NCBI GenBank assembly: GCA_026225095.1
Contig: JAMFSC010000163.1
Location: forward strand, 1-57,238
Direction: 5' to 3'
Length of the DNA: 57,238 nt
From: a bacterium
GTDB taxonomy: Bacteria > Acidobacteriota > Terriglobia > Terriglobales > Acidobacteriaceae
Below the pieces are notes generated by a model that saw only the letters and a program-made list of their open reading frames with translations, had not been told where the DNA came from and ran no database searches. This document shows, one piece after another, positions 1 to 42,367 of this stretch (positions are counted from its first letter, which is position 1; each line of letters begins with the position of its first letter). A program made the position numbers and the translations under genes.

Positions 1-50
1 TGCGCCGAAGGTGGGGCACCCAACTTCACACCTTCAGCGAATCTGCTCTA
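1..50. repeat. Dispersed TAG-ended repeat, copy A (cut by window edge)
   Basis: Partial copy of the dispersed palindromic repeat. It contains the shared block GAAGGTGGGGCACCCAACTT (8-27) and the terminal arm AATCTGCTCTA (40-50). The final CTA (48-50), read on the minus strand, is the TAG stop codon of the ABC permease gene. The rest of the element lies outside the window. Confidence 0.8.
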
Positions 51-8217: not shown

Positions 8218-9531
8218 ATGCCCGAACTGGAATCACCGCTGACTCGCCTGCTGAACGCCCTGAACGACGGCTCCACCACCCCCGTTGAGGTGGCGAGGAG
8301 TTGTGCGGCGCATGCCAACCGGAACGCGCTGCACAACACTTATCTGCACTTCGACGCGGGGGATTTGGTGGCGCAGGCAGAGTCGCTTCCGGAGCGCTTC
8401 CCCGCATCGAGGCCACCGCTTTACGGGGTGCCGGTGTCACTGAAGGACTGCTTCGACCTTGCCGGCACGGTAACCACTTGCGGCTCGGGACTTTACGCAA
8501 AGCTTCACCCGCCGGCGAAGGAAGACTCGGCGGTCGCGGCCCGGCTGCGGGAGTCTGGCTGCCTGATCACCGGCAAGACGCACCTCCACCAACTGGCGTA
8601 TGGCATCACCGGGCAGAATCGCGACTTTGGCGACTGCCTTCAGCCGGCGGATGCCTCGCGGCTGACAGGGGGCTCAAGCAGCGGTGGGGCGGCGAGCGCG
8701 CAGGAGGGCTCGGCGCTGGCGGCGATCGGCACGGACACGGGTGGGTCCATTCGCGTTCCCGCGGCACTGTGTGGGCTGGTGGGCTTTCGCTGTTCCCGTA
8801 GTGCTGGGAAGAGCTGGCCTGAGCTGTGGCGAGGGGCCGCGCATCTTGCCCCATCCTTCGATACGATCGGGCTGCTCTTCGCGGACCCACGCGATGCCGC
8901 TCTCCTGGTTGGGACGTTGTTCGGGATTCCGGCGATTCCAGCGGCGAGCCGATACCGCATCGGGTGCGTGCCCGATAGCTTCCTGGATGACTGCGAGCCA
9001 TCTTCGCTGGCAACCTATCGAGCATCGCAGAAGATGCTCGAGCGCGCGGGAGCCGAGTTGGGCGAAGTCGACGTCTCCTACTGGAACGATACGATCGAGA
9101 TCTTCTCTGGAATCCAGGCCCACGAGGCGGCCATTCTGCATCGTGGGCACTTCGAACACTTCGAGCCAGCCATTGCGCAGCGGCTCGCCTGGGGCGCGTC
9201 GCTCTCCGCGGTCGAGGTGGACAGACTGCGCACGCGGCACGAACACTTCAAGGTGCCTATGGCGGAGCTCTTCGAGAGCTTCGATCTTCTGATGCTTCCG
9301 TGCGCACCGGTGGATCGGCTGCTTCCCCATGCAGACCAGAGCACGGTGCGGCAGGCGATCCTGCGCTACACCACGCCGTTCAGCCTGGGCGGGCTGCCAG
9401 CGGTCGCGCTGCCGGGAAGCCTCGTCGGCGAGACCTTTGGCACGGGCGTGCAGATTGCGGCGGCGTCCGGAATGGATGGGGATCTTCTCTCTTTCGTCAC
9501 ATGGCTGAGCCTTGAGTTGGCTGGACCTTAG
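8218..9531 (+). CDS. Amidase (amidase-signature family)
   Basis: Amidase-signature hydrolase of 437 aa with the Ser-cisSer-Lys triad visible: K76 in VSLKDCFD, the GGSSSGG loop at 151-157 and the nucleophile S177 in TDTGGSIRVP. The family includes allophanate hydrolase, GatA and many catabolic amidases. No tRNA-amidotransferase partner genes are present, so a catabolic amidase is favoured. It releases ammonia from an amide, which fits the deaminase and creatininase theme of the island. AGGA lies 6 nt before the start. The gene stops on the TAG that begins repeat copy B. Confidence 0.9.
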   Translation: MPELESPLTRLLNALNDGSTTPVEVARSCAAHANRNALHNTYLHFDAGDLVAQAESLPERFPASRPPLYGVPVSLKDCFDLAGTVTTCGSGLYAKLHPPAKEDSAVAARLRESGCLITGKTHLHQLAYGITGQNRDFGDCLQPADASRLTGGSSSGGAASAQEGSALAAIGTDTGGSIRVPAALCGLVGFRCSRSAGKSWPELWRGAAHLAPSFDTIGLLFADPRDAALLVGTLFGIPAIPAASRYRIGCVPDSFLDDCEPSSLATYRASQKMLERAGAELGEVDVSYWNDTIEIFSGIQAHEAAILHRGHFEHFEPAIAQRLAWGASLSAVEVDRLRTRHEHFKVPMAELFESFDLLMLPCAPVDRLLPHADQSTVRQAILRYTTPFSLGGLPAVALPGSLVGETFGTGVQIAAASGMDGDLLSFVTWLSLELAGP

Positions 9532-9644
9532 AGCAGATTCGCTCAAGGTGTAAGGTGTCGTGGCGCTCCGTCCCACCTTAGCGACGATGAGACGTGTCGC
9601 GAAGGTGGGGCACCCAACTTCACACCATTGGGCAATCTGCTCTA
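9529..9644. repeat. Dispersed TAG-ended repeat, copy B (complete, 116 bp)
   Basis: Complete long-form element bounded by TAGAGCAGATT (9529-9539) and AATCTGCTCTA (9634-9644), which are perfect 11-bp inverted ends. An internal hairpin (9572-9609) has arms CCCACCTT-A-GCGAC and GTCGC-G-AAGGTGGG. The first TAG is the stop codon of the amidase gene. A 44-bp core around the hairpin is identical to copy E, 32 kb away. Confidence 0.9.
9572..9609. terminator. Hairpin in repeat B, possible bidirectional terminator
   Basis: A 13-bp stem with one A/G internal mismatch and a 10-nt loop lies 40 nt after the amidase stop and 104 nt before the next gene. There is no U-run, so intrinsic termination is only a possibility; it may instead be a structural part of the repeat. 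Confidence 0.4.
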
Positions 9645-9713: not shown

Positions 9714-10700
9714 ATGCTTCTCGGCGCACGACGAATCCCTCTTGCACTCCGGCCTGCCTGCCTGCTCCTCGCCTTGCTGGGTGTGGGGTGCAAGGGGCGG
9801 CACGCCGGGAATGGCCTGATCCCGATCACGCTCCAGGCGGATTGGTACCCGCAGCCCGAGATCGGAGGCTTCTACCAGGCGCAGCTCGAAGGGTTGTACA
9901 AGGCGCAAGGACTCGATGTCACCGTCGCGCCCGGAGGACCGTTCATCGTTGGCCATCAACAGGTGGCAAGTGGCGCGGCGCAGTTCGCGATGGGAACATC
10001 GGACCAGGTGCTGGTCTTCGCCTCGCGTGGCATCCCGCTGGTAGCGGTGGCCGCGACCATGCAGCAGGATCCGCAGGCCATCATGGTTCATGAAGATGCT
10101 CCGGTAAAGACCTTCGCCGATCTGGAGGGACATACCATCGCGGTCAAGCCGGGCTCCATCTGGTTCCAATATCTCCTAAGCCGGTATAGCCTGCACAACA
10201 CCCGTGAGATTCCTGCAACGTACAGTGTCGCGAATTTTCTGTCCGACCCCAACTATATTCAGCAGGCCTTCGTAACCTCCGAGCCCTACTTCGCGGAAAA
10301 GGGCGGCGCCAGAGTTCGTACGCTGCTCGTCAGTTCGACCGGCTATCAGCCCTATCGGGTCTTCTTCACGTCGCGAAGCTTTCTCAACGAACATCCTGAG
10401 ATCGTTCAGAAGTTTGTCGACGCCTCACTCCAGGGCTGGCGCGACTATCTGAAGGATCCGACTCGAACCGACGATGAGATCGCCCGGCTGAATCCCGCGA
10501 TGAGTCCCGAGCAGATGCGATTCAGCGTGGATACCCTGAGGCGCCAACACTTCATCGACGGTCCGGGAACGGTCGATTCGCACCTTGGCCACTTCACGGT
10601 CGAGCGTTGGAGCGCGATGTACAAGCAGTTGGTCGACCTGAAGGTCATCACCCAGCCACTCGACCCAGCCACCACCTACACGACTCGCTTCGCGCCGTAG
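9714..10700 (+). CDS. NMT1/THI5-like ABC substrate-binding lipoprotein
   Basis: Solute-binding protein of 328 aa with a lipoprotein signal: a hydrophobic run ends in LLGVGC with the lipidated Cys at 26. The mature part starts with ITLQADWYPQPEIGGFYQAQ and has the periplasmic-binding-protein type II layout of the NMT1/THI5/SsuA group, whose members bind hydroxymethylpyrimidine, sulfonates, riboflavin and similar compounds. It is probably the receptor for the ATPase/permease pair at 48-1639, which lacks its own binding protein. GGAG sits 6 nt before the ATG. Its TAG stop is the first triplet of repeat copy C, and repeat copy B lies directly upstream. Confidence 0.88.
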   Translation: MLLGARRIPLALRPACLLLALLGVGCKGRHAGNGLIPITLQADWYPQPEIGGFYQAQLEGLYKAQGLDVTVAPGGPFIVGHQQVASGAAQFAMGTSDQVLVFASRGIPLVAVAATMQQDPQAIMVHEDAPVKTFADLEGHTIAVKPGSIWFQYLLSRYSLHNTREIPATYSVANFLSDPNYIQQAFVTSEPYFAEKGGARVRTLLVSSTGYQPYRVFFTSRSFLNEHPEIVQKFVDASLQGWRDYLKDPTRTDDEIARLNPAMSPEQMRFSVDTLRRQHFIDGPGTVDSHLGHFTVERWSAMYKQLVDLKVITQPLDPATTYTTRFAP

Positions 10701-10766
10701 AGCAGATTCGCTCAAGGTGTAGGGTGCAGTGGGCACCCGCTTCATAACTTCGGGCAAGCTGCTCTA
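10698..10766. repeat. Dispersed TAG-ended repeat, copy C (short form, 69 bp)
   Basis: Short element bounded by TAGAGCAGATT (10698-10708) and AAGCTGCTCTA (10756-10766). It lacks the internal CCCACCTT hairpin of copies B and E but keeps an inner GTGGGCACCCGC block. The first TAG is the stop codon of the binding-protein gene. It separates that gene from the convergent coaBC gene. Confidence 0.85.
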
Positions 10767-32047: not shown

Positions 32048-32280
32048 TCGGAAGCTCCTACAACAAACGAGGTTAGCGTTGAGACGCGACAGGGCCTTCT
32101 CCGTGGGGATGCGCGTAGAGCGCTCACCGGGGCGGAGAATTGTCCGAAAATTGACAGATGGTGTAACCAACACTATTCGTAAATTGTCGGTACGTCAACG
32201 ATTGTTTTGCTGAGCCTGGAACTTTCTTGGCTGAGGTGCCGTATTGGCGCTCCGTCAGGAAGTTCTGGATGGAGATGCTA

Positions 32281-32362
32281 TAGCGGATTCGCTGAAGGTG
32301 TAGGGTTTTGGGTCGGGTACCGTGGGGCACCCAAACTCTATACCAACTTGAAATCCGATCTA
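32281..32362. repeat. Dispersed TAG-ended repeat, copy D (short form, 82 bp)
   Basis: Starts TAGCGGATTCGCTGAAGGTG (32281-32300) and ends AAATCCGATCTA (32351-32362). It holds GGTACCGTGGGGCACCC but not the CCCACCTT hairpin arm. The terminal CTA (32360-32362), read on the minus strand, is the TAG stop of the glycosyltransferase gene. It lies in the 5' region of the receptor gene. Confidence 0.85.
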
Positions 32363-33481
32363 GCGGGCGGGCCGATCGAGGCGACCCCGGCCTGAGCGAT
32401 GGCGGAGGATGGCCTTGATGCCTCGGGTGGCCTTGTTGATGGCTCGATTCATGCGGTGAATGAGGAGAGAGACGCGCATCGGGGGAACCGCGACCAGGTA
32501 GACGAAGAGCCAGAAGCGCCAGTTGCGGCGGAAGATGGGGGTGAGGGTGGCGGCGAAGTCCTCGGAGTGCATGGACTGCTGCTTGCCGCGGCGGCTCTCG
32601 ACGATGACGTCGGGCAGCCAGTAGCGGAGGACGCCGTTCATGAGGCTGGCGTCGAGCGTGGGCTCGGCGGCGAAGTAGCGCTGGGCGATGCGGTGGAGAC
32701 GCAGGCCGAATACCTCCGCGATGCCCCATCCGCCTGAGTTGAAGTGGCGATAGAAGACCAGGCGCTGATGGACATAGAGGATGCGGCAGCGGCGGTGGAT
32801 GACGGGAAAGAGCCAGCCGACCTGAATGAGGTTGGAGTCGGCCAGTTCGGTGATTGGAGGGTGCGGAGTGGCGAGGAGCCGATCCTTGTTGACTATATTG
32901 GCGCTGATGAGGCCGATCAGAGCGTTGACCTTCTCGAGGAAGTATTCGCCGTCGGTGACAAGCTCGGCGAAGCGGCCTAGCCGATCGAAGCCTGGCGCGG
33001 GGCGTTGATCTCCGTAGAAACCGACGGAGGAGAGGTAGACGAGGTCGTAGTCGTCGGAGCGGAGCATGGAGACGAGGTCGACGATGGCAGTGGGGGCGAG
33101 GAGGTCGTCGTCGCCCATGACCCAGACGTACTTTCCCTGGGCGAGGTCGAGGCACTGAAGGAAGTTGGCGTCGGCTCCGATGTTTTCGGGGTTGCGGACG
33201 TAGCGGCAGGGCAGGCCACGGGCGATGAACTGGGCGACGAGCTGCTCGGTATCGTCGGGCGAGGCGTTGTCGGAGACGATGAGCTCGAGGGCGGGCTCGG
33301 CGGAGATCTGAGGCAGGAGGCATTCGAGCAGCTCGGCGAGGTAGCGGCTGCGATTGTAGGTGGGAATGGCGAGCGATAGGACGGGACGGGAGTCAGGGGT
33401 GTTCGGGCTGCGCGATTGAGGCCTGAGAGCGATCGTCTCGGGAGAACGCTCGGGGTGTGGGGGGGGTGGCATGCCGGGCAA
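32360..33481 (-). CDS. Glycosyltransferase family 2
   Basis: GT-A fold transferase of 373 aa. The N-terminal domain starts at VLSLAIPTYNRSRYLAELLE (about residue 34); IVSDNASPDDT and the metal-binding VMGDDDLL (DxD) follow. The second half resembles abequosyltransferase-type enzymes of O-antigen synthesis, with an amphipathic, basic C-terminus. The first 33 residues are Pro-rich and disordered, so a later start (33472 or beyond) is possible. It is not in a visible polysaccharide cluster. Its stop codon belongs to repeat copy D. Confidence 0.85.
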   Translation of the reverse strand: MPGMPPPPHPERSPETIALRPQSRSPNTPDSRPVLSLAIPTYNRSRYLAELLECLLPQISAEPALELIVSDNASPDDTEQLVAQFIARGLPCRYVRNPENIGADANFLQCLDLAQGKYVWVMGDDDLLAPTAIVDLVSMLRSDDYDLVYLSSVGFYGDQRPAPGFDRLGRFAELVTDGEYFLEKVNALIGLISANIVNKDRLLATPHPPITELADSNLIQVGWLFPVIHRRCRILYVHQRLVFYRHFNSGGWGIAEVFGLRLHRIAQRYFAAEPTLDASLMNGVLRYWLPDVIVESRRGKQQSMHSEDFAATLTPIFRRNWRFWLFVYLVAVPPMRVSLLIHRMNRAINKATRGIKAILRHRSGRGRLDRPAR

Positions 33482-41225: not shown

Positions 41226-41353
41226 TAGCGCAGATTCGCTGAAGGTGTCGGGTTCTGGGTCGGGTACCGGGGCGCTCCGGCCCACCTTAGCGACGATGAG
41301 ACGTGTCGCGAAGGTGGGGCACCCGACTTTATATCAACAGACAATCCGATCTA
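41226..41353. repeat. Dispersed TAG-ended repeat, copy E (complete, 128 bp)
   Basis: Long-form element bounded by TAGCGCAGATTCGCTGAAGG (41226-41245) and ACAATCCGATCTA (41341-41353). The hairpin core (41281-41318) and flanking GGGCACCC are identical to copy B over about 44 bp. The terminal CTA (41351-41353), on the minus strand, is the TAG stop of scpA. The element lies between scpA and the PiT gene. Confidence 0.9.
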
Positions 41354-42367
41354 ACGCCAGTCGTCGCGCGTGGCGGCCTGATCGGTGACGAACTGGTCGA
41401 AGTTCTCGGTCTTCTTAATAAGGATGTCGCCGAGTTGCACGGGCTGGTGGAGCAGGACGGCCTGCAGGCGCACGAGTTCGAGCATCGCGAGGAACATGCA
41501 GATGAGGGCGCGCTCGGAGTGGGTGTTGTGCAGCAGGCGCCGCAGGGAGATGGGGTGGTCTTCCATGATGAGGCGGCGACGGACGTAGTCGAGCATCTGG
41601 GCGACGGTGACGGACTCCTCGTCGACGTTGAGGACGGGCCGGCTGCGGAGGCGCTCGAGGATGTCCTGGAAGACGCGAACGAGGTCGACGGTGTCGGCGG
41701 CGATCTCCTGCTCGGGGTCGAGGAGACCAGTTTCGCCGGCGGCGGCCTCCTGATCTTTGCGGAAGCCACGCAGGCCGGGATTGGACCAGGTTGCGTCTTC
41801 GATCTGCTGCTTCTGCATCAGCATCTGGGCGGCGGCCTTGAAGCGCTCGTGGTCGAGGAGGCGCTCGACGAGTTCGCGGCGGGGATCTTCAGGATCGGAG
41901 CCGGTGACATCGGATGGATCGCGGGGAAGGAGCGTCTTGCTCTTGATGTGGATCAGGAGCGAGGCCATGTAGATGAAGTCGCCGGCGGTGTCGACGTCGG
42001 TCTGCTTGAGCTGGTGGGTGTAGGCGAGGAACTGGCTCGTGATGCGCGCGATGGGAATGTCGTAGATGTCGATGTTCTGCTTGCGGATGAGGTCGAGCAG
42101 AAGGTCGAGGGGGCCGTCGTAGACCTGGCCGACGGTGACGGAGAAGGGGGATTGCGAGGCCTCTTCGCGTGCGGGGGAGGGGCGTTTGGCTTCCGGGAGT
42201 GGGGGTTGGATGGGGCGGGGTTCGAGGCTGAAGGGGACGGCGTGGGTCTCGGCCTCCGTGGGTTCGGCGGATGGGACGGGGCCAGAGTCGGGGGTTGGCG
42301 ATGCCACTTCCGGAGTATCCACTTCGGGGGCTTCGGCGGTTTCGGGCTGGATCGGTTCGTTGGCCAT
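41351..42367 (-). CDS. scpA: Segregation and condensation protein A
   Basis: Kleisin subunit of the bacterial condensin, 338 aa. About 90 low-complexity acidic residues precede the conserved start VGQVYDGPLDLLLDLIRKQN. Helical motifs IDIYDIPIARITSQFLAY and FIYMASLLIHIKSKTLLPRD follow, with a C-terminal winged helix near residues 270-325. The start at 42367 overlaps the trpS stop by 1 nt (TGATG). Its partner scpB lies 5.6 kb downstream behind the PiT and ADOP genes. The stop codon is the end of repeat E. Confidence 0.92.
   Translation of the reverse strand: MANEPIQPETAEAPEVDTPEVASPTPDSGPVPSAEPTEAETHAVPFSLEPRPIQPPLPEAKRPSPAREEASQSPFSVTVGQVYDGPLDLLLDLIRKQNIDIYDIPIARITSQFLAYTHQLKQTDVDTAGDFIYMASLLIHIKSKTLLPRDPSDVTGSDPEDPRRELVERLLDHERFKAAAQMLMQKQQIEDATWSNPGLRGFRKDQEAAAGETGLLDPEQEIAADTVDLVRVFQDILERLRSRPVLNVDEESVTVAQMLDYVRRRLIMEDHPISLRRLLHNTHSERALICMFLAMLELVRLQAVLLHQPVQLGDILIKKTENFDQFVTDQAATRDDWR

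Follow-up and report, generated by a model that had tools for sequence, protein, structure and literature searches.

Repeat ends at stop codons in an acidobacterial genome: a probable IS630-type MITE with a YTAR target site

Five copies of a palindromic repeat at gene ends

The window analyzed here, a stretch of 57,238 nucleotides from a bacterium of the Acidobacteriaceae, is a whole contig (C264) and holds five copies of a dispersed repeat, here called A to E, which occupy the following positions together with the genes that they adjoin:

1..50 (−): right part of copy A; the gene at 48-863 (−) has its stop codon, CTA, at 48-50
9529..9644 (+): copy B, a MITE of 116 bp; TAG at 9529-9531 is the stop codon of the gene at 8218-9531 (+)
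9572..9615 (+): hairpin inside copy B; it also occurs by itself in relatives within the genus
10698..10766 (+): copy C, a short form of 69 bp; TAG at 10698-10700 is the stop codon of the gene at 9714-10700 (+)
32279..32362 (+): copy D, a short form of 84 bp; CTA at 32360-32362 is the stop codon of the gene at 32360-33481 (−)
41226..41353 (+): copy E, the full form of 128 bp; CTA at 41351-41353 is the stop codon of scpA (−)

The central claim of the original prediction, that an end triplet of the repeat is the stop codon of the neighboring gene in all five copies, was confirmed. The copies in the window are imperfect palindromes of 69-128 bp that are non-coding and carry no transposase gene, and a length of 128 bp recurs in 25 of the 33 copies with paired ends. 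The inner hairpin is present in copies B and E and absent from the short forms C and D. The further claim that every copy runs from TAG to CTA had to be narrowed. Copy A shows only its right end because the contig start cuts it, and copy D begins at 32279 rather than at 32281, with a left end TATAGC (aligned as TATAGCGGATT) whose homologous triplet is TAT, not TAG. Judged from the sequence, the empty sites of copies B, D, and E would read CCT TAA, CGC TAG, and CGT TAA, respectively. Copy C, flanked by GTAG, has a G before the TA and is an exception to the YTAR consensus established below. A search of the window against Rfam at gathering score returned only a tRNA, the repeat matching no known RNA family.

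It had also been claimed that five of five copies at stop codons is not expected by chance, and the site counts bear this out: 5 of the 11 stop-codon sites in the window are occupied versus none of the 23 intergenic YTAR sites (Fisher p = 0.0017), the numerator taking in copy C, with its GTAG flanks, and copy A, for which one flank is missing. With copies B, D, and E alone, the comparison is 3/9 versus 0/23 (p about 0.017).

Ends shared with an IS630-family element and the target site

Another contig of the same genome carries an IS630-family element of 1031 bp (G000:C8:4163-5193) with the terminal inverted repeat TAGAGCGGATTAGCCG. The two ends of this element and nine MITE ends from the window form a gap-free alignment of 41 columns, 10 of which are invariant, and because the ends align in this way, the repeat is best read as a MITE of the 1031-bp element. 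The transposase (L079:1163-2142) is split into two frames whose overlap contains seven consecutive T (A on the coding strand), a feature that suggests programmed frameshifting. The larger piece matches the NCBIfam model NF033545 (transpos_IS630) with 138.9 bits (cut-off 100) and also Pfam DDE_3; against the same NCBIfam model, the smaller piece scores 33.7 bits, below the cut-off. The transposase's stop codon, TAA, is created at the junction with the target, as it is in the related element L245, and L127 shows the same arrangement. When checked for docking, the 1031-bp copy itself proved to be intergenic and not on a called stop codon. The remark that no transposase is nearby holds for DDE_3, the one family searched, since none of its six genome matches falls within the window. 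Further transposase pieces of the IS630 type occur in the same genome at G000:C126:16386-16991 and G000:C260:7436-7927 (64% and 66% identical), and a pattern search for the MITE-type end at these two loci found none.

The ends recur beyond this genome in IS630 relatives from acidobacterial and proteobacterial records. Out of 80 fetched loci, 64 were given and 26 yielded a terminal inverted repeat; 22 of these were kept, including three from one MAG (L274, L289, and L305), and L233, L242, L246, and L266 were set aside as their supposed ends start unlike the others. The 22 elements have TAGAGC-type ends, with an outer base of C or T at 43 of 44 ends; retaining all 26 loci gives C/T at the left base of 22 and A/G at the right base of 23. 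In seven genus genomes with related transposases, the end pattern gave 0-6 matches per strand (control, 0-4), revealing no large family there. The pattern exceeded its control in two relatives, G007 (6 versus 0) and G063 (9 versus 2, two of the nine being its IS ends).

The flanks of the repeat point to a short target. Both ends could be located in 85 copies; 80 of these have C or T immediately 5′ of the left TA, 80 have A or G immediately 3′ of the right TA, and a flank profile over 12 bases on each side of these copies revealed no clear preference beyond YTAR. With the right ends of copies C and D added (n = 87), the pyrimidine and the purine are both present in 76, and TA is kept at both ends in 55. 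At stop-codon ends, the reconstructable empty sites read TAA or TAG in 40 of 44 cases and TAC or TAT in four. Judging by the flanks, the kept TAs, and the protein ends of orthologues, the target is probably YTAR, with duplication of the TA.

A near-identical strain was not found, and orthologues of the adjoining genes served as empty sites, by which we mean orthologous gene ends and not identical flanks; these were clean for two of the five window copies, C and E. Searching 60 genus genomes for scpA gave a match in 57, including its own, leaving 56 others. In all 19 relatives read among these 56, the protein ends at the same last residue, with TAG in 13 and TAA in six, and none of the 19 runs on into the element within the 40 bases inspected. 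Orthologues of the binding protein beside copy C end in TAG in five of five cases; in one the last residue is the same, and in the other four the stop lies one residue later. Unrelated 3′ ends at empty sites, named at the outset as evidence against the idea, were found neither at E nor at C, and these orthologue stops indicate that at both loci the stop codon predates the element. The amidase beside copy B has orthologues with variable ends, and those of the glycosyltransferase beside copy D are highly divergent, without a clean empty site.

The inner hairpin has a wider distribution than the element around it. When 60 genus genomes were searched with copy E, with at most 14 candidates scored per genome, at least 39 of them, including its own, gave matches; among the matches listed, all those outside its own genome fall in element positions 43-108, the hairpin region, and none in the other 59 genomes is full length. 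Of 29 hairpin loci fetched from relatives (L169-L197), 27 were long enough to be inspected for an element-type end within 100 bp, and none has one. As the hairpin stands alone in relatives, the MITE seems to carry an older hairpin repeat enclosed by IS630-type ends. This repeat measures approximately 45-50 bp (9572-9615 and 41280-41330 in the window). The hairpin folds are stronger than those of shuffled sequences (z −2.8 to −7.9 in six folds). With matches to its region in many genus genomes, the inner hairpin might be a REP element (GTAG/CGTC type). By eye, many of the relatives' hairpin loci adjoin a second small palindrome.

Stop-codon occupancy across the genome sample and its explanation

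We then asked how the repeat is distributed over the rest of the genome. A search with copy B gave at least 45 matches (40 of 269 candidates scored), and a strict end pattern gave 184 matches versus 14 for a control pattern. The sample consists of 82 stretches (500,534 bases of the 5.1-Mb draft) around the first 100 pattern ends and the matches of the copy B search, the other 84 pattern matches being sampled only where that search reached them. A profile search of these stretches found 116 non-overlapping matches, or 115 once the two halves of copy D were merged, and dropping three with poor ends left 112 located copies. Genes were taken from a rough custom caller, which after retraining called 79% of the sequence as coding; an earlier version had left 27% uncalled.

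Among the located copies, 48 coincide exactly with a called stop codon and 43 are intergenic; the remaining 21, at stretch edges, are unclassifiable. A majority of copies away from stop codons had been named as refuting the original prediction, and in the raw count there is a narrow one (64/112 off called stops), whereas a stop codon is the site of 48 of the 91 copies that have a called gene on each side. Measured against available YTAR sites, occupancy is 48/140 at stop codons, 20/93 in convergent, 17/210 in co-directional, and 6/113 in divergent intergenic regions, the numerators being all located copies, including a few without YTAR flanks, and the 48/140 excluding five empty stop sites that overlap another gene. 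Across the sampled stretches, copies thus occupy roughly one-third of the YTAR stop codons versus one-tenth of intergenic YTAR sites; these absolute shares are inflated because the stretches were chosen around copies, and the comparison between classes is the fairer one. The enrichment of stop over intergenic sites has an odds ratio of 4.3-5.2 (p 2e-9 to 1e-10) over five gene-calling settings, here with the five overlapping stop sites included. As a check on bias, the copies found by the whole-element search have 18/43 on stops (odds ratio 4.1, p = 2e-4), and those with both ends and YTAR flanks have 35/76 (odds ratio 4.5, p = 6e-8); the 26 copies in which neither side has the strict end pattern are less often on stops, dividing into 6 at stops, 14 intergenic, 3 at edges, and 3 with poor ends. 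Three of the 48 stop-codon copies end two convergent genes each, giving 51 gene ends, and the element end that faces the gene shows no significant bias over these (30 versus 21, p = 0.26). At G000:C235:687-814, a single element gives stop codons to both convergent genes.

The repeat has the ends of an IS630 element and YTAR flanks, is enriched at stop codons, and at two loci lies beside genes whose orthologues, lacking it, have an unchanged protein end. It is therefore very probably an IS630-type MITE that would be mobilized in trans and insert at YTAR, its position at stop codons following from the site and from tolerance at gene ends. A transposase of the IS630/Tc1-mariner type is predicted to act in trans on ends starting with GAGCRGATT and would insert them into YTAR sites at the TA, which would be duplicated. 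If this TA belongs to a TAA or TAG stop codon, it would form TAG with the element's terminal G, so that translation would end at the same residue and the protein would be unchanged. Such insertions would be harmless and persist, and those in genes or 5′ regions would mostly be lost. Many copies would lie exactly in stop codons because stops often contain YTAR and the element's first letter rebuilds TAG. Of the two readings offered by the original prediction, the first, that the element inserts into stop codons or beside the ends of genes, is upheld in substance, except that the preference appears to be for YTAR, of which stop codons are a common, harmless instance.

Alternatively, the transposase might actively target gene 3′ ends, preferring terminators, stop codons, or transcript-end structures beyond YTAR. 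Occupancy does fall with distance downstream of the stop, from 48/135 at the stop itself to 10/38 at 1-30 nt, 16/78 at 31-100 nt, and 15/291 beyond 100 nt (2/9 for sites without such a gene end). However, the same gradient is expected from the loss of promoter and gene insertions, the 12-base flank profile holds no clear signal beyond YTAR, and the stop itself shows a modest excess (odds ratio 1.9, p = 0.026, versus 1-100 nt downstream), so we regard active targeting as unlikely. Because the fall is gradual, the stop codon is better seen as the high point of a gradient than as a separate class. A related reading, in which stop codons are a safe harbor where YTAR and the terminal G are self-sealing on either strand and a real preference for gene 3′ ends is added, strikes us as similarly doubtful. 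Although the enrichment at gene ends may reflect selection, targeting, or both, we infer that selection lies behind most of it, and the occupancy gradient and the low divergent share would fit selection, as the available parts of PMC3049150 argue for pneumococcal repeats.

The second reading of the original prediction, in which the repeat would bring along its own stop codon and be selected at gene 3′ ends as a terminator or mRNA-end unit, is not supported and is in our view improbable. The strong folds of the hairpin and the enrichment of copies at gene ends would suit such a unit, but a simple pattern scan for a GC-rich stem with a U-run found none inside B, C, or E, its single match (41395-41411) falling outside copy E and within scpA. 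Moreover, the TA appears to belong to the target, the stop codon is older than the element at C and E, 23 of the 91 classified copies lie in co-directional or divergent intergenic regions, and the matches listed from the other 59 genus genomes, with their limit of 14 scored candidates each, hold no full-length element. Gene truncation, in which an upstream insertion brought a new in-frame TAG, would account for a stop at the element end in all five window cases, but it is highly improbable given the full, conserved C-termini of scpA and the binding protein and given that an in-frame YTAR within a gene would already be a stop.

Known systems and implications

Among the known elements with which an IS630-type MITE at YTAR sites can be compared are IS711, of the IS5 family, and the enterobacterial RU-1 repeats, which are ERIC elements. 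The comparison with pneumococcal repeats is drawn from their published descriptions. RUP of Streptococcus pneumoniae is a 107-bp repeat whose terminal inverted repeats resemble those of an IS630-family element (IS630-Spn1); it has TA targets and a proposed mobilization in trans (PMC2229807) and is over-represented between convergent genes (PMC3049150). It differs from the repeat described here in its host and in that the available parts of both sources describe no docking at stop codons. Repeat-encoded stop codons are already known from BOX, also of S. pneumoniae, where 36 CDSs have a BOX-encoded stop without strong evidence of truncation (PMC3049150); the mover proposed for BOX is, however, ISSpn2, and those parts of the source give no explanation by target site. 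In Brucella, IS711 duplicates TA at the consensus YTAR and has two overlapping reading frames (PMC2266754, PMC3163539), but it is an IS of 842 bp and not a MITE, and the term "stop codon" is absent from the main text of both papers. RU-1 repeats are short palindromes that have TA at their ends and duplicate TA, and in one case the normal stop codon was apparently removed and the protein lengthened, the opposite of the outcome here (PMC2759123). ISY100, of the Tc1/mariner family, inserts almost exclusively at TA, which is duplicated, and a title cited in the same source reports a CTAG preference of an IS630-associated transposon (PMC2170065); IS630 and ISY100 are autonomous IS, whereas the repeat here is a MITE. 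Other accounts describe a gene lengthened at its 3′ end by a MITE (PMC5896051) and note that many IStrons begin with a stop triplet (PMC4227781). In the literature searched, from which subscription papers were mostly absent, we found no account of YTAR targeting as the reason for repeat-encoded stop codons.

Taken together, the combination of a YTAR target with a terminal G offers a simple, testable reason for stop codons that are supplied by small bacterial repeats, and the same logic may extend to other YTAR-type elements, such as IS711. For annotators, it means that stop codons supplied by repeats can be original ones and not truncations.
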